Below are positions 26,149 through 39,731 of a stretch of DNA of 64,000 nt, in pieces. The stretch comes from an uncultured Bacteroidales bacterium (GTDB lineage Bacteria > Bacteroidota > Bacteroidia > Bacteroidales > Bacteroidaceae). The notes under the pieces were generated by a model that saw only the letters and a program-made list of their open reading frames with translations, did no database searches and was not told the DNA's origin. The position numbers and the translations under genes were made by a program. The stretch covers positions 124,001 through 188,000 of the forward strand of contig CACWTU010000002.1 of the NCBI GenBank assembly GCA_902763885.1, given 5' to 3'. The first letter of the stretch is position 1, and each line of letters starts with the position of its first letter.

Positions 26149-28334
26149 GAGAGATGAAAGATAAGGAGACTCGTTCACAGGAGAAGAAGAGGGTGTCACG
26201 TAAATACCTCTCTCTGTTCCTGCTCATGTTGGTGTGGGGCATATTCATCATAGTGAAGATGGCTTTTGTCATGTTTGGGGAGAGACAGTACTGGAACGAT
26301 GTGTCCAAGAACATGACTCCCGTGAACAGGGTGATTGAGCCGCGTCGCGGTAATATCCTGAGTGATGAGGGGTTGCTTCTGGCAAGCAGTATGAAACAGT
26401 ACCGTGTGTTCCTGGATTTCCGTACTGCCGAGAAGGATGAGGTTCGTGGCAAGAAGGATCAGGAGCGCAAGGATACACTCTACTCAAGACATCTGGCAGA
26501 GTTCGCGCACCAGATGCATGAGATATTCCCGCAGTATTCAGTGCAGGAATTTGCCACTCATTATGAGAAGGGGCATGCTGCCAAATCCCATTCATGGATG
26601 CTTTTGCCTGGTGGTTCACGTAACTCTTATCCCATAACATATAATCAGTATAAGTCATTGGCCAAGACTGTATGGCTCAAGCCCAAGTATGAGGGGTGGT
26701 TCTTCAGTGCCGAGTCCAAGATCTCACGCCAGAAACCTTTTGGAGCTCTTGCTGCAAGAACCATCGGGAGTATGTTTGAGGCCAAGGATTCAGCCAGAAA
26801 CGGTCTGGAACTGTCATTTGATTCTCTCCTGCGTGGTGTTCCCGGGCGCGGTCATCAGGAGAAGGTACAGAATGTAACCCGTATGATTGCCGATATCCCC
26901 CAGATAGACGGTTGTGACATACACACAACCATCAATGTGGATATGCAGGACATTGCTGAGGTGGCTTTGCGTAAGCAGCTTGAATTCAGGAACGCAGCAT
27001 CGGGCATAGTAGTGCTTATGGAAGTACCCACTGGTGATATAAAGGCTATTGCCAGTCTTACCAAGACGGAATCAGGCCAGTTCAGCGAGATACAGAACAA
27101 TGCCGTAAAGGAGTTGTTTGAGCCGGGTTCCACGTTCAAGCCTGTATCCATGATGGTGGCTCTTGATGACGGCAAGATTTCACTTACAGACAGTGTTTAC
27201 TGTGAGCATGGCTTATATACTGGCTTTGGAGGCGCCCGGATGACGGATGCAAGCAAGAATTACGGATGGCTTACTGTGGTAGGAATTATCCAGAATTCAT
27301 GTAACATAGGAACATCCAAACTGATAAATGCAGCGTACAAGGATAATCCGCAGGCTTTTGTGGATGGAATATGCCGTACGGGCATCAATACCCATTTTGA
27401 CCTTCAGCTTACAGGAACTGCTGCTCCGGTGATAAAGCGTGACGGTTATTGGGATGCTACCCGTCTGCCCTGGATGTCAATAGGATATAACACCCAGCTG
27501 CCTGTGATAAACACTCTTGCTTTCTACAATGGTGTGGCTAACGGAGGGTGTATGGTGGCTCCACGTCTGGTTACGGAAGTAACCCGTGAAGGTGAGGTAG
27601 TACAGGAATTCCCGGTTGAGGTAGTGAAACGGCACATGTGTAAGGATGAGACGCTTGAAAAAGTGAGGTTCCTACTTGAAAACGTGGTTCAGAACGGCAC
27701 AGGAAAGAATGCAAGTTCCAAATATTTTCCTGTGGCCGGAAAGACCGGAACGGCACAGCTCTCACAGGGCGCAGGGGGTTATAAGAGCGGGAGACAGACT
27801 CATATGGTATCGTTCTGCGGATACTTCCCGGCCGATAATCCGCAGTACTCATGTATAGTATCCATACGTACCGATGGCGGTGCTGCCGGCGGTGCCACCT
27901 GGGCGGCTCCTGTATTCCATGAGATATCAGAGAAGGTTATGGCAAACCGTAACATCAGGGATGTGAAGGAGGCATTTGATTCAACCCGCCAGTTCATACC
28001 TAAGGTCCTGCCGGGTGATCTGGCCAAGGCGGGTACCGTACTCAAGGGGCTTGGCAAGAAGAATCTGATGAGCCGTATTGACCGCGCCGTGGCAGATACG
28101 GTATGGGGGAGTGTAAGCTCGGATTCGGGACGTTATGTGATGAAGCATGTGGAGTACGCTGAGGGGCTGGTTCCTGATGTGCGCGGCATGGGAGCATCGG
28201 ATGCACTCTATCTGTTGGAGAAGATGGGAATGAGGGTTAACATCAGCGGAGTGGGCAAGGTAAAGAGCCAGAGCCTGCAGAAAAATACCCGTTACCGCAG
28301 GGGTGACAGAATACAATTGACATTATCAATGTGA
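26145..28334 (+). CDS. ftsI: FtsI/PBP3, septal peptidoglycan transpeptidase with PASTA domain
   Basis: Class B penicillin-binding protein that crosslinks septal peptidoglycan together with FtsW. Order of parts: short cytoplasmic tail, one transmembrane anchor (~24-46), PBP dimerisation/pedestal domain, transpeptidase domain with all three active-site motifs, SxxK (Ser329, GSTFK), SxN (Ser385-Cys-Asn) and KTG (Lys533), and a C-terminal PASTA domain (~670-729, [21 protein letters not shown]). The PASTA extension is common in Bacteroidetes FtsI. The start overlaps ftsL by 4 bp; the stop overlaps the region just before murE. Confidence 0.96.
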
Positions 28335-28339
28335 GATAT

Positions 28340-29788
28340 ATGGTGACAATAGGAGAACTTGTATCAGGACTTAAGGTAGTCAGGACTGTCGGTGATACCG
28401 CAGTGACTGTTACTGATATCCAGCTTGATTCACGCAAGGTGGGTAAAGGGTGTCTGTTCGTGGCTATGCGCGGTACTACCGTTGACGGCCATCAGTTCAT
28501 ACCCAAGGCAGTAGAACTGGGAGCTGGCTCGGTGCTTTGTGAGGTATTGCCTGAGCAGCCTGCAGATGGCGTTACATACATACAGGTGCCGGATTGTGAG
28601 GATGTTGTGGGAATTGTCTCCACAAGGTTCTTTGGTAATCCTACCGATAAGGTCAAACTGGTGGGTGTGACGGGAACAAACGGCAAGACCACCATTGCAA
28701 CCTTGTTATATAACATGTTCCGGGCGTTCGGTTACAAATGCGGACTGGTTTCAACCGTCTGCAATTATATTGACGGAGAGCCGATACCTGCTGATCATAC
28801 CACACCTGATGCCGTAACACTGAACCGTCTGCTGGGTCGTATGGCCGATGAGGGTTGCAAATACGTGTTCATGGAGTGCAGTTCACATGCCATAGTGCAG
28901 AAACGCATAGGCGGACTCAAATATGCAGGTGGCATATTCACAAATCTTACCCGTGATCATCTGGATTACCACAAGACGGTTGAGAACTACCTCAAAGCCA
29001 AGAAGAAGTTCTTTGATGATCTGCCCAAGGAGGCTTTTGTGGTTACCAACCTGGATGACAAGAACGGGCTGGTAATGGCACAGAACACCAAGGCAAAGGT
29101 TACCACATACTCATTGCGCAGCATGAGTGACTTCAAGGGCCGTCTGCTGGAATCCGGTTTTGACGGTATGCTGCTTGAGATAAACGGCCGCGAGGTGTTC
29201 CTTAAGTTCATAGGCAAGTTCAATGCAAGTAACCTGCTGGCAGTTTACGGTACAGCCGTGAACCTGGGCCGCGATCCTATGGAGGTGCTTACCGTAATGA
29301 GTACGCTGGTGCCTGTGAACGGCAGGTTTGATGCCATACGCTCACCCAAAGGCTTTACCGCCATTGTTGATTACGCCCATACTCCCGATGCGCTTACCAA
29401 TGTGCTCACAACCATTGTTGATGTGCTGGACAAAAAAGGACAGATAATCACGGTGGTGGGTGCAGGCGGAAACCGTGACAAGGGTAAGCGTCCGCTCATG
29501 GCAAAGGAGAGCGTGAAGTACAGTGACAAGGTTATCATTACATCAGATAATCCCCGTTTTGAGGAGCCGCAGGATATCATCAATGATATGCTGGCTGGTC
29601 TTACCAAAGAGGATATGCAGAAGGTGATAACGATTGTTGACCGCCGTGAGGCCATACGTACCGCGTGTATGATGGCTCAGCCCGGTGATGTGATACTAGT
29701 GGCAGGCAAGGGCCATGAGGATTATCAGGACGTAAAGGGAGTAAAACACCATTTTGACGACCACGAAGTCATCCGTGATTGTTTTTAA
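28340..29788 (+). CDS. murE: MurE, UDP-MurNAc-L-Ala-D-Glu:meso-diaminopimelate ligase
   Basis: ATP-dependent cytosolic ligase adding the third residue to the peptidoglycan stem peptide. The P-loop [15 protein letters not shown] lies near residue 110, and the C-terminal DNPR motif ([11 protein letters not shown]) specifies meso-diaminopimelate rather than lysine. 482 aa is the usual length. A GTG at 28331 would overlap the end of ftsI, but ATG 28340 gives the more normal N-terminus ([11 protein letters not shown]). A 60-nt gap carrying AATTG-type repeats separates it from mraY. Confidence 0.95.
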
Positions 29789-29810
29789 TAAAGTAAATGG
29801 AGTAATTCTA

Positions 29811-29843
29811 AATTTTCAATTTTCAATTCTCAATTTTCAATTT
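29811..29843. repeat. TTTTCAATT repeat tract between murE and mraY
   Basis: Tandem TTTTCAATT-like units, the same family as the inverted tracts at 24131-24248. No terminator is evident, so the operon probably reads through. Confidence 0.7.
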
Positions 29844-29848
29844 GAAGA

Positions 29849-31135
29849 ATGTTATACAGTCTCTTTGAATACCTAAAGAATGCCGGGATTGATATTCCCG
29901 GAGGAGGAATGTTCCAGTATGTGACGTTCAGGGCCATATCTGCGTTGGTACTGTCACTTGTGGTATCGTGCTGGTTCGGCAGTCATTTCATTGACGTGCT
30001 GAAAAGGAAAAACATATCAGAGACTCAGCGTGACGTAAAGCTGGATCCCTTTGGCGTAGCCAAGAAGGGTGTGCCTACTATGGGTGGCGTCATAATAATA
30101 GTGGCAATCCTTGTGCCTTGCCTCCTGATAGGTGACCTTAAGAACATCTATATGTGGCTGATGATCATAACTACTGTCATTTTAGGTGCCATCGGTTTTG
30201 CTGATGACTACATCAAGACCTTCCGTAAGAACAAGGATGGATTGAACGGCTGGTTCAAGGTGGCCGGGCAGTTGGCTTTAGGTCTGATAGTGGGCCTTAC
30301 ACTCCGTTACAGTCCTCAGGTGGTCATTAATGAGAAGGTAGAGACCCGTATAGAGAACAATACCGAGGTGGTTATCAAGACTCCCGATGTCAAGTCCACC
30401 CGTACCACCATCCCGTTCTTCAAGAACCATAATCTGAATTATGCCGACGCTTTCAGTTGGTTGGGAGAGAAAGCCAAGTATCCGGCAGGTTGGATATTTT
30501 TTGTACTGCTTACACTGTTCATCGTGACGGCTATATCAAACGGCTCAAACCTGAATGACGGTATGGACGGCATGGCGGCAGGTAATTCTGCGATAATAGG
30601 CGTGACGCTTGGTGTTCTGGCATACGTGTCAAGTAACGTTGTCACGGCAAGTCACTTTGACCTGATGTACATTCCCGGCAGCCAGGAGGTGGTAATCTAT
30701 TTGTGCACGTTTGTGGGTGCCCTTATAGGTTTCCTTTGGTTCAACTCCTATCCGGCACAGATATTCATGGGTGATACAGGCAGTCTTACCATAGGTGGAA
30801 TAATAGCTGTGGCTGCACTCTGCATACACAAGGAACTGCTACTGCCGATATTGTGCGGCGTGTTCGTGGTGGAGAGCCTCTCAGTGATATGTCAGCGATT
30901 TTACTACAAGCTGGGCAAACGCAAGGGCGTGCATCAGCGTATTTGGAAACGTACGCCCATACATGATCATTACCGTACAAGCATGGAACAGGTCCTGAAG
31001 GCCGATCCCGGCAGTACGGTAAAGTTCCAGGGTAATGACAATAAGTTACAGTTAGAGACCAAGATAACGCTCAGGGCCTGGATCATAAGCATAGGTCTTG
31101 CAGCGCTTACAATATTGACCTTGAAAATCAGATAA
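29849..31135 (+). CDS. mraY: MraY, phospho-MurNAc-pentapeptide translocase
   Basis: Integral membrane enzyme that attaches phospho-MurNAc-pentapeptide to undecaprenyl phosphate, forming lipid I. Visible motifs: KKGVPTMGGVIII near residue 73, FADDYIK (catalytic aspartates) near residue 115, NGSNLNDGMDGMAAG near residue 231, and the cytoplasmic HHH-like KRTPIHDHYR segment near residue 370. About ten hydrophobic segments; 428 aa is normal for Bacteroidales, which have a loop insertion (about 165-190, acidic and lysine-rich) compared with E. coli. Confidence 0.96.
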   Translation: MLYSLFEYLKNAGIDIPGGGMFQYVTFRAISALVLSLVVSCWFGSHFIDVLKRKNISETQRDVKLDPFGVAKKGVPTMGGVIIIVAILVPCLLIGDLKNIYMWLMIITTVILGAIGFADDYIKTFRKNKDGLNGWFKVAGQLALGLIVGLTLRYSPQVVINEKVETRIENNTEVVIKTPDVKSTRTTIPFFKNHNLNYADAFSWLGEKAKYPAGWIFFVLLTLFIVTAISNGSNLNDGMDGMAAGNSAIIGVTLGVLAYVSSNVVTASHFDLMYIPGSQEVVIYLCTFVGALIGFLWFNSYPAQIFMGDTGSLTIGGIIAVAALCIHKELLLPILCGVFVVESLSVICQRFYYKLGKRKGVHQRIWKRTPIHDHYRTSMEQVLKADPGSTVKFQGNDNKLQLETKITLRAWIISIGLAALTILTLKIR

Positions 31136-31140
31136 TTGAA

Positions 31141-32475
31141 ATGGCAAAGAAAATTGTTGTACTGGGTGCAGGTGAGAGCGGTACAGGTGCCGCCATATTG
31201 GCAAAAGCCAAAGGGTTTGACGTGTTTGTATCGGACCTTTCAGAGATAAAGGCGCATTATCGTAACGAACTGGACCTGCGTGGTATTAAATGGGAACAGA
31301 AACAGCATACTGAGGCGCGTATCCTTGCTGCCGATGAGGTGATCAAGAGCCCCGGCATCCCCAAGGAGGCTCCCATCATTCAGAAACTCATGGCCCAGGG
31401 CACGCCCATCATATCGGAGATAGAGTTTGCAGGCAGATATACAAATGCCAAGATGATATGTATAACCGGCTCAAACGGCAAGACTACAACCACATCGCTC
31501 ATTTACCATATCTTCAAGATGGCGGGCATGAACGTGGGTCTGGCCGGTAACATCGGAAGCAGTCTGGCATGGCAGGTGGCTGAGAAGAACTTTGATTACT
31601 ATGTGATTGAACTGAGCAGTTTCCAGCTTGACAACATGTATGATTTCAAGGCTGATATAGCCATCCTCATGAACATAACTCCTGATCATCTGGACCGTTA
31701 TGACTATGAAATGCAGAACTACGTGGATGCCAAGATGCGCGTTATTCGTAACCAGACCAAGGATGATGCATTTGTCTATTGGAGTGATGACCCCATCATT
31801 ACCCGTGAACTCAAGAAGTACGGACTAAAGGCTACCCTCTATCCGTTTGCTGAGGCTAAGAAAGAGGATCTGGCTGCATACGTTGAGGACGGCACTCTCT
31901 ATTTCAACAAGCCGTACGCCTTCAATATGGAGCAGGAGTCGCTGGCACTTACCGGCAAGCATAACCTGTACAACTCAATGGCTGCCGGTATATCGGCCAA
32001 TATCGCCGGCATAAAGAGTGAGACCATACGCAAGGCTCTGCAGACATTCCAGGGTGTGGAGCATCGTCTGGAGCGCGTTACAAGAGTGAACGGCATAGAC
32101 TTTATAAATGACTCCAAGGCTACCAATGTGAACAGCTGCTGGTATGCCCTGCAGAGCATGCCTGTAAAGTGCGTACTGATACTGGGCGGCAAGGATAAGG
32201 GTAATGACTACAATGAGATAGCTGATCTGGTACGCGAGAAATGCTGCGGTCTGGTCTATATGGGCCTGCATAATGAGAAACTGCACGGTTTCTTTGACAG
32301 CTTTGGCCTTCCTGTGGCCGATGTACAGTCAATGAAAGATGCTGTGGATGCTGCTTACAAGATGGCTCAAAAGGGTCAGATAGTATTGCTCAGCCCCTGC
32401 TGTGCAAGTTTTGACCTATTCAAGAGCTATGAGGACCGTGGCGAACAGTTCAAGGCTTGCGTGAGAGCCCTGTAA
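31141..32475 (+). CDS. murD: MurD, UDP-MurNAc-L-alanine:D-glutamate ligase
   Basis: Cytosolic ligase adding D-glutamate, the second stem-peptide residue. The N-terminal Rossmann-like domain begins KKIVVLGAGESGTGAAILA; the ATP-binding P-loop CITGSNGKTTTTSLI is near residue 104; NITPDHLDRYDY and the NDSKATNVNSCWYAL motif near residue 322 are typical MurD. It starts 5 bp after mraY. Confidence 0.96.
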   Translation: MAKKIVVLGAGESGTGAAILAKAKGFDVFVSDLSEIKAHYRNELDLRGIKWEQKQHTEARILAADEVIKSPGIPKEAPIIQKLMAQGTPIISEIEFAGRYTNAKMICITGSNGKTTTTSLIYHIFKMAGMNVGLAGNIGSSLAWQVAEKNFDYYVIELSSFQLDNMYDFKADIAILMNITPDHLDRYDYEMQNYVDAKMRVIRNQTKDDAFVYWSDDPIITRELKKYGLKATLYPFAEAKKEDLAAYVEDGTLYFNKPYAFNMEQESLALTGKHNLYNSMAAGISANIAGIKSETIRKALQTFQGVEHRLERVTRVNGIDFINDSKATNVNSCWYALQSMPVKCVLILGGKDKGNDYNEIADLVREKCCGLVYMGLHNEKLHGFFDSFGLPVADVQSMKDAVDAAYKMAQKGQIVLLSPCCASFDLFKSYEDRGEQFKACVRAL

Positions 32476-32490
32476 AAAGAAAGATGTGAT

Positions 32491-33780
32491 ATGGAGATAA
32501 ATGAAGAGAAAAAGGAACGCAGGCAACTGCTGAACGGCGACCCGACTATTTGGGCAATGGTTATAATACTGTGCTGCATCTCACTTGTTGAGGTGTTCAG
32601 TGCAAGTAGCCGTCTTACGTTCGGTAAGAGCAGTTTTCTGGCTCCCATCATATCGCATACCATACATCTGTGTATGGGCGTAGCGGTTATGTACGTTCTT
32701 CATTTGCTGCACTATAAATGGTACAGGCTGTTCCCCGTACTGCTTGTGCCGGTATCAATTATCCTGTTGGCTTACCTTTCAATACAGAGTGCCAGTTCAT
32801 CGGGCGCTGAACGCTGGATAAACTTAGGTTTCTTCCAGTTGCAGCCTTCAGAGGTGGGTAAGATTGCGGTCATCATGTCAGTGGCATACTGGCTGTCAAA
32901 ACTAAAACCTGACGATGAGCTGAGCCAGTCCAATACGTTCTGGAAAATAATGGCACTGACAGGGCTGGTATGTCTGCTGATAGTAGGTGAGAACCTGTCG
33001 ACAGCGGTACTGCTGGCCGGAGTGATATTCGTAATGATGATATTGGGCGGAATTGCCTGGCGGCGTATATTGGCTTTGTCAGGTGTAGTGGCGGCAGCAG
33101 GAATTGTAGCCTTAGTGGTACTTTTGTTCGTTCCGGCACAGACCATACGTGACTCCAAGATAATTCCGTCACGTGCCACTACCTGGCAGGCCAGATTGCA
33201 GGATTTCTTCCAGCCGGGAAGTGAAGGAACTCCCACGGCATATGAATATGCCAAGATAGTTGCGCCTGAGAAACCTCAGGAGACACATGCCAATATAGCC
33301 ATTGCAACCAGTAACATACTGGGTAAAGGGCCTGGTAACTCTGTTGAACGTGACTATCTGCAGGAGGCCAGTTGTGACTTTATCTATGCGATAATAATAG
33401 AGGAACTTGGCATGGCCGGCGGAATAGTTGTCATGCTGGTCTATGTCATACTGCTCTTCAGGGTAGGGCGTTTGGCAACCAAGTGCAGGGAGAAATATCC
33501 GGCATATCTGGCTATGGGACTGGGTATGCTCATAGGCTTGCAGGCATTCATTAACATGTCTGTTGCCGTGGGTCTGTTCCCTGTAACGGGCCAGCCGCTG
33601 CCTCTTATAAGCAAGGGCGGTACGTCTGTGCTGATGACAAGTTTCTGCATGGGCATGCTGCTTGGCATAAGCAATACGTTGGAAAAAGAGGAGCGTGGAG
33701 AGTATGTACTGGGAACTGAAACCGATGTTCCCACGCCTATAGAAGGAAAAGAATCATTTGACGATATAACCGAATCCTGA
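32491..33780 (+). CDS. ftsW: FtsW, septal peptidoglycan glycosyltransferase (SEDS family)
   Basis: Polytopic inner-membrane enzyme that polymerises lipid II at the septum as partner of FtsI. Ten or so transmembrane segments; SEDS features include GAERWINLGFFQLQPSEVGKIAVI near residue 105-128 (with the catalytic-region Pro-Ser-Glu), DFIYAIIIEELGMAGG near residue 295 and the C-terminal PVTGQPLPLISKGGTSVL. The 429-aa length fits. It lies 15 bp after murD and 2 bp before the murG::murC gene. Confidence 0.95.
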   Translation: MEINEEKKERRQLLNGDPTIWAMVIILCCISLVEVFSASSRLTFGKSSFLAPIISHTIHLCMGVAVMYVLHLLHYKWYRLFPVLLVPVSIILLAYLSIQSASSSGAERWINLGFFQLQPSEVGKIAVIMSVAYWLSKLKPDDELSQSNTFWKIMALTGLVCLLIVGENLSTAVLLAGVIFVMMILGGIAWRRILALSGVVAAAGIVALVVLLFVPAQTIRDSKIIPSRATTWQARLQDFFQPGSEGTPTAYEYAKIVAPEKPQETHANIAIATSNILGKGPGNSVERDYLQEASCDFIYAIIIEELGMAGGIVVMLVYVILLFRVGRLATKCREKYPAYLAMGLGMLIGLQAFINMSVAVGLFPVTGQPLPLISKGGTSVLMTSFCMGMLLGISNTLEKEERGEYVLGTETDVPTPIEGKESFDDITES

Positions 33781-33782
33781 AT

Positions 33783-36287
33783 ATGGATGCAAAACCAAGA
33801 ATAATAATAAGTGGAGGAGGCACGGGAGGACATATATTCCCGGCCATCTCAATAGCTCATGCCATCAAATCATTGAACCCTGATGCTGAGATCCTGTTTG
33901 TGGGGGCACAGGGACGCATGGAGATGCAGCGTGTTCCTGCTGCCGGGTTTGATATCAAAGGTCTGCCTATATGTGGGTTTGACCGTAAGAATCCGTTCAA
34001 GAACATAGTGGTTCTGTTCAAGATAATACGCAGCCAAATAATGGCACGCCGTATTATCCGTCAGTTCAAGCCTATGGTAGCCGTGGGCGTGGGTGGTTAT
34101 GCCAGCGGTCCCACATTGCGCATTGCAGGCAAGATGGGCATACCTACGCTGTTGCAGGAACAGAACTCATACGCAGGCGTGACCAACAAGATCCTGGCCA
34201 AGAAGGCGGCCCGTATATGTGTGGCTTATGATGGTATGGACAGGTTCTTCCCTGCCGACAAGATTCTTAAGACCGGTAATCCGGTACGTCCCAATCTTAC
34301 CAAAGGTGGCATGACACGTAAGGAGGCTGCCCGTAAGATGGGGCTTGATGCTTCCAAGCGTATAGTACTCATTGTGGGCGGCAGTTTGGGAGCACGCACT
34401 CTTAATGAGAGCGTAATGGCTAATCTGGACCTGATACGTATGTCAGATGACGTGCAGTTTGTATGGCAGACCGGCAAGTTCTATTTTGAGGAGATGAAAC
34501 AGCGTCTTGCAGATCAGCCTAAGGTATCCAATCTTTTCCCTACGGAGTTTGTGCAGGATATGGATCAGGCATACGCAGCCGCAGACCTGGTTATATCACG
34601 TGCCGGTGCCGGAACCATATCTGAACTGTGTCTGTTGGGCAAACCGGTCATACTGGTGCCGTCACCCAATGTTGCTGAGGATCATCAGACCAAGAATGCG
34701 CTAGCACTGGCTGATAGGGATGCCGCAATACATATCCGTGACGTGGATGCCCGTAAGGAACTTATTCCGGCAGCCGTTGACCTGGTTAAGGATGAGGCAC
34801 ACCTGGTACAACTGCATGAGAATATACTCAAACTTGCCATGTATGATTCGGCCGAGGTTATTGCAAATGAGGTACTTAAACTGGCCGGTTACGGTTGTGG
34901 CACACTAAAGCTGGATGATATAAAGTCAGTATATTTTGTGGGAGCAGGCGGCATTGGCATGAGCGCTCTTGTCCGCTATTTCCTAAATAGAGGATGTCAG
35001 GTGGGAGGTTATGACAAGACCTCTACGGATCTTACATCGGCCCTGATAAAGGAGGGTGCAAGGATTGGTTTTGAGGATGATGTAAATAAGGTGGATGAGT
35101 GCTTCAGGGATCCTAATTCAACTCTTGTGGTATATACTCCGGCTATTCCTGCTGATAACAAGATATTGCGTTGGTTCAACATTCACTGCTTTGATGTGCA
35201 GAAACGCGCCCAGGTACTGGGTACTCTGACACGCTCTCTTGACGGCTTGTGTGTGGCAGGTACACACGGCAAGACCACCACATCATCAATGGTTGCACAT
35301 ATCCTTGACGGCACTCCGGAGAGGTGCAATGCGTTCCTGGGCGGAATACTCAAGAACATAGGCAGTAACCTGATGGTAAGCAATAAGAGCCGCCGTGTGG
35401 TTATTGAGGCCGATGAGTTTGACCGTTCGTTCCATCATCTCACTCCCTTGCGTTCTGTCATCACTGCCGTTGATCCCGATCATCTGGATATCTACGGTAC
35501 ATATGAGGCATATGTGGAGAGCTTCCGTAAATATACATCGCTCATAAAGCCGGGCGGTGACCTTATACTCCATGTGGGATTGGAAGAGAAGATCAGGCCC
35601 CAGCTCCAGGATGGCGTGAACCTCCATACATACGGACTGGATGAGGGTACATTCCATGCTGCAAACATCAGGATCGGCAACGGTGAACTGAGGTTTGACT
35701 ATGTATCCCCGCTTGGCAGTATTGCTGATGTTGAGCTGGGTGTGCCTATTCCCATCAATGTGGAGAATGCTGTGGCTGCCATGGCTATGGCTCAATTGAG
35801 CGGCGCATCAGATGATGTGATCCGTGAGCGTATAGCATCGTTCCGTGGATGTGACCGTCGCTTTGACTTTCATGTAAAGAGTGCTGATAAGGTTTATCTG
35901 AGCGATTATGCCCATCATCCGGAGGAGATACGCCAGTGCGCCCTGTCACTGCGTAAGCTCTATGCAGACCGTAAGATAACATGCATATTCCAGCCGCATC
36001 TATATACCCGTACCAGAGATTTCTACAACGAGTTTGCTGAGAGTCTCTCACTGTTTGATGAGGTCTGGCTCCTGGAGATTTATCCAGCGCGTGAACAACC
36101 CATACCGGGAGTTACAAGTAATCTTCTGGCAGACAACATGAAGCCAGGAGTTTGTAAAGGCATAATATCCAGGAATCAGGTACCTGAACTTGTGGAGTCA
36201 ATAAAGGATGACATTCAGGTTCTGGTTACACTTGGTGCCGGTGATTTGGAGGATTATGTGGAAACCATAACAAAGATACTCAAGTAA
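33783..36287 (+). CDS. MurG-MurC fusion: GlcNAc transferase plus UDP-MurNAc:L-alanine ligase
   Basis: One 834-codon frame encodes two cell wall enzymes. Residues ~1-368 are a full MurG (GGGTGGHIFPA at 11-20, GGYASGP, QEQNSYAG, GGSLGA, RAGAGTISEL, PVILVPSPNVAEDHQ), making lipid II from lipid I. Residues ~376-834 are a full MurC (VYFVGAGGIGMSALVRYF, P-loop GTHGKTTT at 493-500, EADEFDRSF, DPDHLDIYG, DYAHHPEEI), adding L-Ala to UDP-MurNAc. The join is ~GYGCGTLK (nt ~34890-34910); there is no stop codon between them and no ATG, GTG or TTG near the MurC N-terminus in its frame, so MurC cannot be made separately by a conventional start. Neighbours keep the usual ftsW-murG-murC-ftsQ order. Bacteroidales usually have two genes here; an assembly error is less likely because both domains are intact and in frame. 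Confidence 0.9.
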   Translation: MDAKPRIIISGGGTGGHIFPAISIAHAIKSLNPDAEILFVGAQGRMEMQRVPAAGFDIKGLPICGFDRKNPFKNIVVLFKIIRSQIMARRIIRQFKPMVAVGVGGYASGPTLRIAGKMGIPTLLQEQNSYAGVTNKILAKKAARICVAYDGMDRFFPADKILKTGNPVRPNLTKGGMTRKEAARKMGLDASKRIVLIVGGSLGARTLNESVMANLDLIRMSDDVQFVWQTGKFYFEEMKQRLADQPKVSNLFPTEFVQDMDQAYAAADLVISRAGAGTISELCLLGKPVILVPSPNVAEDHQTKNALALADRDAAIHIRDVDARKELIPAAVDLVKDEAHLVQLHENILKLAMYDSAEVIANEVLKLAGYGCGTLKLDDIKSVYFVGAGGIGMSALVRYFLNRGCQVGGYDKTSTDLTSALIKEGARIGFEDDVNKVDECFRDPNSTLVVYTPAIPADNKILRWFNIHCFDVQKRAQVLGTLTRSLDGLCVAGTHGKTTTSSMVAHILDGTPERCNAFLGGILKNIGSNLMVSNKSRRVVIEADEFDRSFHHLTPLRSVITAVDPDHLDIYGTYEAYVESFRKYTSLIKPGGDLILHVGLEEKIRPQLQDGVNLHTYGLDEGTFHAANIRIGNGELRFDYVSPLGSIADVELGVPIPINVENAVAAMAMAQLSGASDDVIRERIASFRGCDRRFDFHVKSADKVYLSDYAHHPEEIRQCALSLRKLYADRKITCIFQPHLYTRTRDFYNEFAESLSLFDEVWLLEIYPAREQPIPGVTSNLLADNMKPGVCKGIISRNQVPELVESIKDDIQVLVTLGAGDLEDYVETITKILK

Positions 36288-36292
36288 GAAAG

Positions 36293-37030
36293 GTGGTAAA
36301 GAAGATTCTATCCATATTGACGGTGTTTCTACTGGCGGGATATATGGTATATTCCGTCCTGGGAATGACAAACAGGCATGAGGATGTCCGTTTGTGCAGT
36401 GGCGTTGACCTGCATATTACGGACAGTCTTCATTTTGACCTGATTGATGAGGATATGGTTCTGAGTCTTCTTAAGGAGCATTCTCTGGATCCTATAGGGT
36501 CTCCGCTTGAGGCAATAGATGTGGAAGCTATAGAACAGACATTGGCACTGCATCCGTTGGTGGGTAAGGCGCAATGCTATAAGACCGGCGGTGATATGCT
36601 CAGGATAAACCTGTCGGGAAAGGTGCCTCTGGTACGTGTTCTGAATAACCGTGGACAGGATTTCTATGTGGATAGCCATGGCGAGATACTTTCACAGCAC
36701 TCATTGGCGGTACAGCTACCTGTGGCTACTGGATATATAGACAGAGAGTTCGCATCAAAGGAACTCCTGGAGGTGGTACGTGCCATAGACCGTTCAGAGT
36801 TCTGGAAGGCACAGGTGGAGCAGATAAACGTTACGTCAGACAAGCAGATTGAGTTGGTGCCAAGGGTGGGTGACCATCTGCTTATATTGGGTACGTCCGA
36901 TAATATTGAGGATAAGCTGGAGCGTCTGATGAACTTTTATGAGAAGGGGCTTGACAATGTGGGTTGGAACAAGTATCGTTCCATAAGTGTGGCCTATGAG
37001 AATCAGGTTGTGTGTAAGAAACGAAAATAA
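36293..37030 (+). CDS. ftsQ: FtsQ-like divisome protein
   Basis: A bitopic protein with a short basic N-terminus, one transmembrane helix (~4-22, ILSILTVFLLAGYMVYSVL) and a periplasmic region. The start is GTG 36293, 5 bp after murG::murC. The periplasmic part has an apparently reduced POTRA region followed by the beta domain; motifs such as GDMLRINLSGKVPLVRV and DFYVDSHGEIL are like those of Bacteroidetes FtsQ. The call is supported by the exact position before ftsA and ftsZ. Confidence 0.88.
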   Translation: MVKKILSILTVFLLAGYMVYSVLGMTNRHEDVRLCSGVDLHITDSLHFDLIDEDMVLSLLKEHSLDPIGSPLEAIDVEAIEQTLALHPLVGKAQCYKTGGDMLRINLSGKVPLVRVLNNRGQDFYVDSHGEILSQHSLAVQLPVATGYIDREFASKELLEVVRAIDRSEFWKAQVEQINVTSDKQIELVPRVGDHLLILGTSDNIEDKLERLMNFYEKGLDNVGWNKYRSISVAYENQVVCKKRK

Positions 37031-37035
37031 TATAA

Positions 37036-38511
37036 ATGGGAAACGACAAAGTAATTGTTGCTATTGAGCTTGGTTCATCCAAGATCTCAGGAGTGGCCGG
37101 TCAGAAGATGTATGACGGTTCTCTCAATGTTCTGGCGTATGCCAGCGTGCCATCATCATCCTGCATAAGGCATGGTGCTGTTTATAATCTGGACAAGACT
37201 GCCAATGCAATAGCGGAGGTGGTGGAAAGGCTTAACACAATCCTGTCAGCCAAGATAGAAAAGGTCTATGTAGGCTATAATGCCAAAGGGCTCAGGTCTG
37301 TCATAAGCAAGGTGGAACACAAATTTGATGAGGAGACTGTGGTGAGCCAGGAGGTTCTGGATGATATGTTCCAGCAGTGCAGTGAGATAGATTATGACGG
37401 TTATGTTAACCTGTTCCAGGAGTCACAGGAGTATATCGTTGACAACAAACGTGGTACGGAGACAGACCCTATGGGTGTGGCGTGCTGTTCATTGAAAGGT
37501 AATTATCTGAATATCCTGCTTAAGAAACAGGTGGCAGATTATATAGCACAGTGTTTCATGGCAGCCCAGGTGGAGATTGTTGACGGTTATGTAGCCCCTA
37601 TGGCACAGGCTGAGGCGGTGCTCACTGAAGATGACCTTCAGCAGGGTTGTGCCTTGGTGGATTACGGTGCAGATACCACTACTGTATCAGTCTATAAGAA
37701 CGGCCTGTTACGCTATCTCAGGGTTATCCCGTTGGGCAGTGCACTTATTACCCGTGACCTTTCTTCAATACTCAAGATAGAGCTTGAGCAGGCTGAACAG
37801 CTTAAGTGCGCCTATGGACTATGTAATCTGATAGGCAGTCAGGATTCAGGTGAGACAATTACTGTCAATGACCATTCAATCCCTCTGAAGAATATAGGTG
37901 ATATAATTGAAGCCAGAAATGAGGAGATAATACGCAATGTTTACTCTCAGATCAAGGCCTCAGGGTATGGTGAGGTCCTGTATGCAGGAGTTGTTCTGAC
38001 AGGTGGCGGTTCACAGTTGCGCCAACTGGATAAGATATTCATCAAACTGATGCCTTCTATGCGTAAACCGCGTATAGTGTTAGAGCCTGCTTGCGGCGTA
38101 GTTTGGGCTGAACCCAGATGGAAACGCGGTGACGGTTCCCAATTGGCGCTTCTGTCAGTCCTGGCCAAGGGAGATGAAAGCTGCTGTGAACTGCGGGAGC
38201 CATTGCCAAAGATGGATGCGATAGATAACATCACTGCTGAGGATCAGGACAGGATTGTTCAGCAGGACCTGTTTACAGAAGAAGGCGAGAGTGCTCAGGA
38301 GGAGCGCGACCGCAAGGAACAACAGAAACGTGAGGAGGCTGCAGCCAGAATGGAGGAGGAGACTGCTAAGGAAGAGGAAGCTGAGACCAAGAAGAAAGAG
38401 AAAAAGCCCAGCGTTTTCAAACGTTGGTATGATAACTTTATGAATATGGGTGAGAACTTCTTTGATGACAAGGAGGAGAAGGAGCCTAAATCAGAGAACA
38501 CTGATAATTGA
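37036..38511 (+). CDS. ftsA: FtsA, actin-like membrane tether of the Z ring
   Basis: ATP-binding actin-family protein that anchors FtsZ filaments to the membrane. The phosphate-1 motif VAIELGSSKISGVAG is at the N-terminus, the SHS2 (1c) domain at ~85-165, and the phosphate-2 motif ALVDYGADTTTVSVY near residue 212 and adenosine motif AGVVLTGGGSQL near residue 316 follow. The C-terminal 80 residues are highly charged (E/K-rich) and end in a short amphipathic stretch, FKRWYDNFMNMGENFF, which could be the membrane-targeting helix, though it is followed by a further acidic tail, unlike E. coli FtsA where it is terminal. 491 aa. Confidence 0.95.
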   Translation: MGNDKVIVAIELGSSKISGVAGQKMYDGSLNVLAYASVPSSSCIRHGAVYNLDKTANAIAEVVERLNTILSAKIEKVYVGYNAKGLRSVISKVEHKFDEETVVSQEVLDDMFQQCSEIDYDGYVNLFQESQEYIVDNKRGTETDPMGVACCSLKGNYLNILLKKQVADYIAQCFMAAQVEIVDGYVAPMAQAEAVLTEDDLQQGCALVDYGADTTTVSVYKNGLLRYLRVIPLGSALITRDLSSILKIELEQAEQLKCAYGLCNLIGSQDSGETITVNDHSIPLKNIGDIIEARNEEIIRNVYSQIKASGYGEVLYAGVVLTGGGSQLRQLDKIFIKLMPSMRKPRIVLEPACGVVWAEPRWKRGDGSQLALLSVLAKGDESCCELREPLPKMDAIDNITAEDQDRIVQQDLFTEEGESAQEERDRKEQQKREEAAARMEEETAKEEEAETKKKEKKPSVFKRWYDNFMNMGENFFDDKEEKEPKSENTDN

Positions 38512-38519
38512 TTGTGACT

Positions 38520-39731
38520 ATGAACCAGGACATTAAAGATTTTGAGGAGAATGGGATTCTTCCGTTTGATTTCCCTACTGAATCACGTAAGATAATCAAG
38601 GTTATCGGTGTGGGCGGCGGCGGTGGCAATGCTGTCAAGAATATGTACCGTGAAGGTATTCATGATGTGGTATTCGTCATTGCCAATACTGACCAACAGG
38701 CATTGGTGGACTCAGATATCCCTATCAAGCTCCAATTAGGCCGACAGACCACCAATGGTCTTGGCGCAGGAAATGACCCCGCCGTGGCCCGTAAGGCTGC
38801 CGAGGAGAGTATTGAAGATATTAAGGCTCAGTTCAAGGATGAAACACAGATGGTGTTCATCACTGCAGGAATGGGCGGTGGAACCGGAACCGGTGCAGCC
38901 CCTGTGATAGCAAAGTGTGCCAAGGAATGCGGAATGCTCACAGTAGGTATCGTAACCATACCGTTCAAGTTTGAGCAGCGCCCCAAAATCAAGCAGGCGC
39001 TTAGAGGTGTCAGGGATATGTCTCAGTATGTAGATGCCCTGCTTGTGATCAGCAATGAGAAACTGCTTGAGATATATCCTGACCAGAGTGTGGCAAACGG
39101 ATTCAAGTATGTTGATGAGACCTTGACCACTGCAACCAAGAGCATAGCTGAACTTATTACCTGCCGTGGTATAATAAACCTTGACTTCCGTGATGTTAAG
39201 AAGATATTGAGCAATGGTGGTGTGGCTATAATGAGTACAGGAATTGCCAAGGGTGAGAATCGCGTCAACCAGGCATTGGATTCAGCACTCAAATCCCCTC
39301 TGCTTTATAACAATGATATCCATAGGTCCAAGAAGATACTGTTCAACATATATCAGAGTACGCATGCCGAGCATCAGCTTATGCTTGATGAGATGAATGA
39401 GGTGCGTCACTTCATGGATAAGTTTGAGGATAAGAATATAGAGGTCATTTGGGGCCTTGCCAATGATGATACTCTAACTGAAGAGGTTAAGATAACGGTT
39501 CTGGCTACCGGATTCGGAATGGAGAGCATTCCGGAAATGGAGGATGAGGATGAGACAGATCGCGTGATAGAGGATCTGTATGGTGATCGCGTTGACAAGC
39601 GCCAGCTCTATCTTTACGAATTGTCTGATAATGATCTTGACAATGACGCCCTGATAGATGCTATTGAAGCATCTCCTTCTTATCTCAGAAATTCAGTGGA
39701 ACTAGCTGAGATCAAGGCTCTTCGCGCTTAG
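38520..39731 (+). CDS. ftsZ: FtsZ, tubulin-like division GTPase
   Basis: GTPase that forms the cytokinetic ring. The tubulin signature GGGTGTG is at residues 119-125, the N-terminal GTP loop [13 protein letters not shown] at 31-43, and the T7 synergy-loop region ([11 protein letters not shown]) near residue 220. The open frame extends to a TTG at 38508 within ftsA, but ATG 38520 gives the normal N-terminus (403 aa). The C-terminal linker is short and acidic; the segment SPSYLRN near residue 388 is the probable counterpart of the C-terminal peptide that binds FtsA, followed by an extra 11 residues. Ends 4 bp inside convergent recO. Confidence 0.96.

Follow-up and report, generated by a model that had tools for sequence, protein, structure and literature searches.

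Fusions of MurG with MurC have been mentioned in the literature. A 2016 review reported that murG-murC gene fusions had been found, named the actinomycete C. gilvus in the legend of its Figure 3, and pointed out that the reactions of the two enzymes are not sequential (PMC4929429). The report was repeated in another paper, in which the MurG of B. pertussis was described as an oligomer binding MurE-MurF and a Mur-enzyme complex scaffolded by MurG was treated as an open question (PMC6420597). A hexameric MurG has also been described (PMC8256705). MurC is joined to a different partner in V. spinosum, where a MurB/MurC fusion complements E. coli murB and murC mutants, and such a fusion was present in 9 of the 9 Verrucomicrobiales of that paper (PMC4803751). 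The available excerpts of the two publications on MurG/MurC contained no biochemical characterisation of the fused protein (PMC4929429; PMC6420597), and we could not find a report of a MurG-MurC fusion in Bacteroidales in the open-licence PubMed Central literature. The initial annotation of the present locus knew of no characterised example of such a fusion; fusions as such have been in print since 2016.

In the window, by which we mean the whole stretch of 64,000 nucleotides that was analysed, a single open frame runs on the plus strand from the ATG at 33783 to the TAA ending at 36287, with 834 codons and no internal stop. It encodes a complete MurG of the GT28 type followed in-frame by a complete MurC of the Mur ligase type (Table 1). 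The initial annotation had claimed that both halves were complete, and the domain analysis bore this out: all five Pfam domains exceeded their gathering scores, with the N- and C-terminal GT28 domains at residues 7-146 and 194-345 of the 834-residue protein, and the N-terminal, middle and C-terminal Mur ligase domains at residues 383-484, 491-670 and 692-815. Matches to solved structures agreed with this division. The MurG half matched chains 1f0k, 3s2u and 7d1i, the best MurG chain spanning residues 6-368, and the MurC half matched best 9ir5, a MurC (E 4.8e-64), and then 1gqq (E 1.8e-61), the best chain spanning residues 375-827. None of the 19 chains listed spanned both halves.

Table 1. Features of the fused gene and its dcw neighbours, in positions of the window
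Feature	Position	Strand	Remarks
murE, mraY, murD	28331..32475	+	dcw cluster; NCBIfam
ftsW/rodA family gene	32491..33780	+	2 bases upstream of murG; best match TIGR02614 ftsW, 251.6 bits, below its cut-off of 337.5
MurG part	33783..34886	+	residues 1-368; UDP-GlcNAc:lipid I GlcNAc transferase, GT28; PF03033 + PF04101, TIGR01133, solved MurG chains
Linker	34887..34919	+	residues 369-379, GYGCGTLKLDD; junction open in 31/31 fused genomes of the genus
MurC part	34920..36284	+	residues 380-834; UDP-MurNAc:L-alanine ligase; PF01225 + PF08245 + PF02875, TIGR01082, solved match 9ir5
TAA stop of the fused frame	36285..36287	+	
ftsQ-position gene	36293..37030	+	5 bases downstream of the fused stop; name assigned by position, between murC and ftsA
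ftsA, ftsZ	37036..39731	+	dcw cluster; NCBIfam

With the NCBIfam models, the MurG half passed the curated equivalog cut-off of TIGR01133 (residues 5-362, 276.7 bits vs 250.25), while the MurC half, at residues 383-826, missed that of TIGR01082 (324.8 bits vs 335.1), a cut-off that is a naming threshold. The miss is probably not caused by the fusion. Scanned alone, the MurC part of the window scored 327.3 bits, also below the cut-off. Two of four stand-alone MurC proteins missed it too (333.9 and 332.1 bits; the others passed with 360.9 and 357.2), which points to a strict threshold for these proteins, and of three fused MurC parts the window's and that of L046 (324.2 bits) missed whereas that of L064 passed (359.9 bits). 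In a motif comparison we found DYAHHP, RRF, the FQPHxxTRT type and GGS[LQ]G[AS] in all 46 fused proteins collected in this work, GGGTGGH in 45 and GTHGKT[TS]T in 44. Other patterns failed in part, namely DxDHLDIYG in 12 proteins, NxxNA in 9 and SRAGA[GM][TS] in 6, perhaps owing to the strictness of the patterns.

The linker of the window's protein has 11 residues, counted between the final KLA of the MurG match and the IKSVYF of MurC. The initial annotation had put it at about seven. That it is short was correct; the figure varies with the choice of boundaries. In a separate sister genome (G016) the two native ends, DNG and MEINQ, total about 8 residues at the same place, so only some three of the linker residues are extra. 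Within the genus, linker length changes by whole codons only. Among the 15 junction codons (residues 366-380), compared in the 27 of 31 fused genomes of equal length, third positions were the most variable, with a mean entropy of 1.47 bits vs 0.73 and 0.55 at the other two positions. The linker thus varies as coding sequence does.

The gene lies in a cluster with the order murE-mraY-murD-ftsW-[murG-murC]-ftsQ-ftsA-ftsZ, named with NCBIfam except for ftsQ, which was named by position. For the latter gene (36293-37030) no NCBIfam match was obtained at E 0.001; its relatives come right after MurC in 167 loci. The window's own genome, 90.92% complete, yielded no second murG or murC; its other matches were two Mur-ligase relatives with 24 and 22% identity. 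The fused gene is the sole murG and the sole murC found in this genome. Outside the window, the same genome carries a MurF-alanine racemase fusion (G000:C2:223500-225965; NF008897, 1248.4 bits vs a cut-off of 804).

Our survey of the genus revealed the same open joined frame in 31 of 37 genomes, the own genome included, with 70-100% identity to the window's protein. Fused members include RUG14495, a MAG from horse faeces and a MAG from water-buffalo caecum. At the level of sequence, this confirmed that the in-frame fusion proposed by the initial annotation is real in the genus. The remaining six genomes (G011, G015, G016, G017, G022 and G024) have two abutting or overlapping genes, the first murC ATG lying at -17 to +11 bases relative to the murG stop. 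The initial annotation had regarded two genes at the same locus with the same flanking bases in close relatives as a sign of error. Two-gene relatives do exist in these six genomes, but their junction bases differ and they fall outside the fused clade, so they represent an older state and not an error.

In a tree built from six proteins of the dcw neighbourhood, for which 54 of 57 rows were used and three outgroup rows lacking enough genes were left out, the 31 fused genomes formed one clade requiring one change (SH-aLRT 99, FastTree support 1.0), and none of 500 shuffles was as low. G011, G015, G016 and G017 were the sister of the fused clade, and G022 and G024 lay further out. The quick tree from MurG and MurC data alone needed two changes in the genus. 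However, one fused clade was not rejected by these data (p-AU 0.723), and the tree in which the fused members were held together was 26.5 lnL better than the free tree. We rejected two fusion events within the genus on this better likelihood and on the single change in the six-protein tree. A grouping of G008 and G013 with G022 and G024 was also rejected with the six-protein data, though not strongly (p-AU 0.020). The best tree shows that the genes fused once, in the common ancestor of one clade within the genus, and no loss was seen among the 31 sampled members of the clade.

In a sample of 301 family genomes, in which fusions with long linkers could escape detection, a joined frame was present in 17 of 21 genus members and in 0 of 280 others among the matches listed. 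We read 25 genomes of other genera of the family directly (20, plus 5 with suspicious frame lengths), and all were separate, as expected by the initial annotation, which regarded separate, adjacent genes as normal for Bacteroidales. The fusion-like frames of 865-1007 aa in G159, G198, G100, G227, G120, G065 and G055, which include those five genomes, proved separate on direct reading in all seven. The order sample (393 genomes, E <= 1e-215) contained at least four joined frames: those of the own genome, G507 (family f91), G511 (f96) and G366 (f51). In the phylum sample (395 genomes, E <= 1e-170) the joined frame was seen in the own genome only. Four fusions were present among the 80 genome_contigs loci that came best in a longer list; three belonged to this genus, and the fourth, L064, came from a Paludibacteraceae MAG, its linker being 59 codons long by the measure used for all fused genes. 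In f96 the one other genome read (G595) was separate, and the f51 sample consisted of G366 alone. On the trees L064, G511 and G366, each a fusion known from one genome, grouped neither with each other nor with the genus or most of f91. Counting f91, f96, f51 and the Paludibacteraceae L064, there are four lineages besides the genus with fusions, and their linkers are unrelated. Among the 15 fusions outside the genus, the linker had no ATG in 11 and none of ATG, GTG and TTG in five; these counts disfavour simple one-base errors for most of them.

In the family f91 the fusion was scattered. We read 37 loci of 36 of its 45 genomes; in the other nine a gene was absent, or murG and murC were cut or on different contigs. 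Both genes were present in 36 loci and 12 were fused. In a quick MurG+MurC tree of 34 rows, three loci with missing or partial MurG having been dropped, the state changed nine times, with 9 of 39 inner branches weak, and one fused clade was rejected (p-AU 9e-55). Fused members were scattered in the six-protein tree too. From these sequences, gain and loss of the fusion were indistinguishable in f91, and the pattern suggests that the fused or separate state matters little there. Single cases need care, since some fused genomes are contaminated, namely G1105, G1108 and G1133 at 7%, and G1113 carries one fused and one separate copy. The dcw neighbourhood looks loose in this family. The two genes are on different contigs in G1106, G1096, G1110 and G1114, and about 200-400 bases apart in G1132, G1116 and G1109. 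Several f91 loci were unusual in other ways: in five genomes (loci L236, L237, L238 and L256, and G1124) the match to MurC is interrupted around query residue 618-622 by about 70-160 additional bases, the DxDHLDIYG pattern is absent from 11 of the 12 fused proteins, and the linker of L238 (G1097) consists of seven-residue repeats, HSSPFTL in three copies plus a fragment, which looks like an intergenic repeat that became coding.

Our preferred reading, which we consider probable, is that the gene makes one bifunctional protein, whose membrane-associated MurG would keep MurC close to the site of lipid II synthesis in a 1:1 ratio. The genes murG and murC, abutting or overlapping in the closest unfused relatives, became one frame, and the product would be a single polypeptide whose two enzymes fold independently. 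MurG would dock on the inner membrane face and, as reported in other bacteria (PMC6420597; PMC4929429; PMC8256705), may oligomerise and bind Mur enzymes. The fusion would then place MurC, which joins UDP-MurNAc and L-Ala, where lipid II is made, in a fixed amount. If there is a gain, it would lie in keeping a Mur complex together or in the fixed stoichiometry. Direct channelling of an intermediate is unlikely, because MurD, MurE, MurF and MraY act between these two steps. Any benefit, like the membrane tethering and flux coupling suggested by the initial annotation, is an inference from the gene sequences.

A nearly equally likely explanation, which we hold to be a serious possibility at somewhat less than an even chance, is that abutting and probably co-translated genes lost a stop and a start, that the fused protein works equally well, and that it persists without benefit. 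The murC start abuts or overlaps the murG end in the unfused members of the genus, so a stop loss via a small change would be an easy route, and reversal would require a new stop plus a new start. The many changes of state in f91 fit this explanation as well, as do linkers of dissimilar sequence whose lengths, measured across the whole set of 46 fused genes, range from 12 to 59 codons. However, no loss was seen in the genus clade, and no other dcw pair about as tight was truly fused in the loci compared. MurG-MurC was fused in 46 of 171 adjacencies (174 loci), a proportion inflated by a sample gathered on purpose with the fused protein and fused genomes. The seven other neighbouring pairs gave 0/94, 0/146 (MraY-MurD), 1/158, 0/160 (FtsW-MurG), 0/167 (MurC-FtsQ), 0/163 and 0/116, and several of their gaps were shorter than the MurG-MurC gap. 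The single case, MurD-FtsW in L108, was an artefact in which the FtsW match starts 5 codons before the MurD stop. Membrane topology forbids some of these fusions, while MurD-FtsW, FtsW-MurG and MurC-FtsQ should be allowed. The wider proposal that selection has favoured MurG-MurC fusion convergently in Bacteroidales, with at least five independent origins (the genus, f91, f96, f51 and L064) and unrelated linkers while dcw pairs of similar tightness stayed unfused, seems doubtful to us. If it were true, MurG and MurC would be in physical contact within a genuine cytoplasmic Mur complex, and natural fusions would allow that debated complex to be tested.

It is improbable that two products are made, MurC being freed by internal initiation or by cleavage of the linker. 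The initial annotation had stated that MurC has no usable start of its own, and indeed the linker of the window's copy contains no ATG, GTG or TTG. It does contain an in-frame CTG (34911-34913), from which a rare start is formally possible, and 10 of the 31 fused genomes of the genus have an ATG, GTG or TTG somewhere in the linker. However, the other 21 have none, the positions are not conserved, the linker sequence varies, and MurG would still have no stop of its own. An assembly or binning error joining two genes has a negligible chance for the genus: the named members are metagenome assemblies and most others, judging by their contig counts, are apparently drafts, but chance and error are ruled out by the agreement of 31 of 37 genomes, whose linkers carry substitutions and whole-codon length changes.

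The MurG/MurC fusion as such was already known; what is new is a Bacteroidales clade that carries it and its recurrence in the order. The clade consists of gut bacteria known mainly from metagenomes, in which an early and the last cytoplasmic step of wall-precursor synthesis lie in one gene. Natural fusions with short and long linkers, with unfused sisters as controls, could be used to test whether MurC sits by MurG, and whether joining non-consecutive steps alters flux or localisation. The protein of about 830 residues can also be given a correct annotation label.

The closest described system is the MurG/MurC of C. gilvus, in which the same two dcw genes are fused (PMC4929429). It belongs to a different phylum, and the likeness is by description only, to a protein depicted there as a schematic. 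The two fusions probably arose separately, since the relatives nearest the Bacteroidales clade are unfused. The MurE-MurF of Bordetella pertussis is also two Mur enzymes in one polypeptide and binds MurG; however, it joins two ligases of consecutive steps, whereas the window's protein pairs a glycosyltransferase with a ligase, from steps far apart in the pathway (PMC6420597). In the MurB/MurC of Verrucomicrobium spinosum, MurC is likewise joined to another pathway enzyme, but MurB acts directly before MurC, and both partner and origin differ (PMC4803751). The MurF-alanine racemase is a fused wall-enzyme pair of the very same genome; unlike MurG-MurC, it consists of other enzymes, lies elsewhere and already has a named family model (NF008897).
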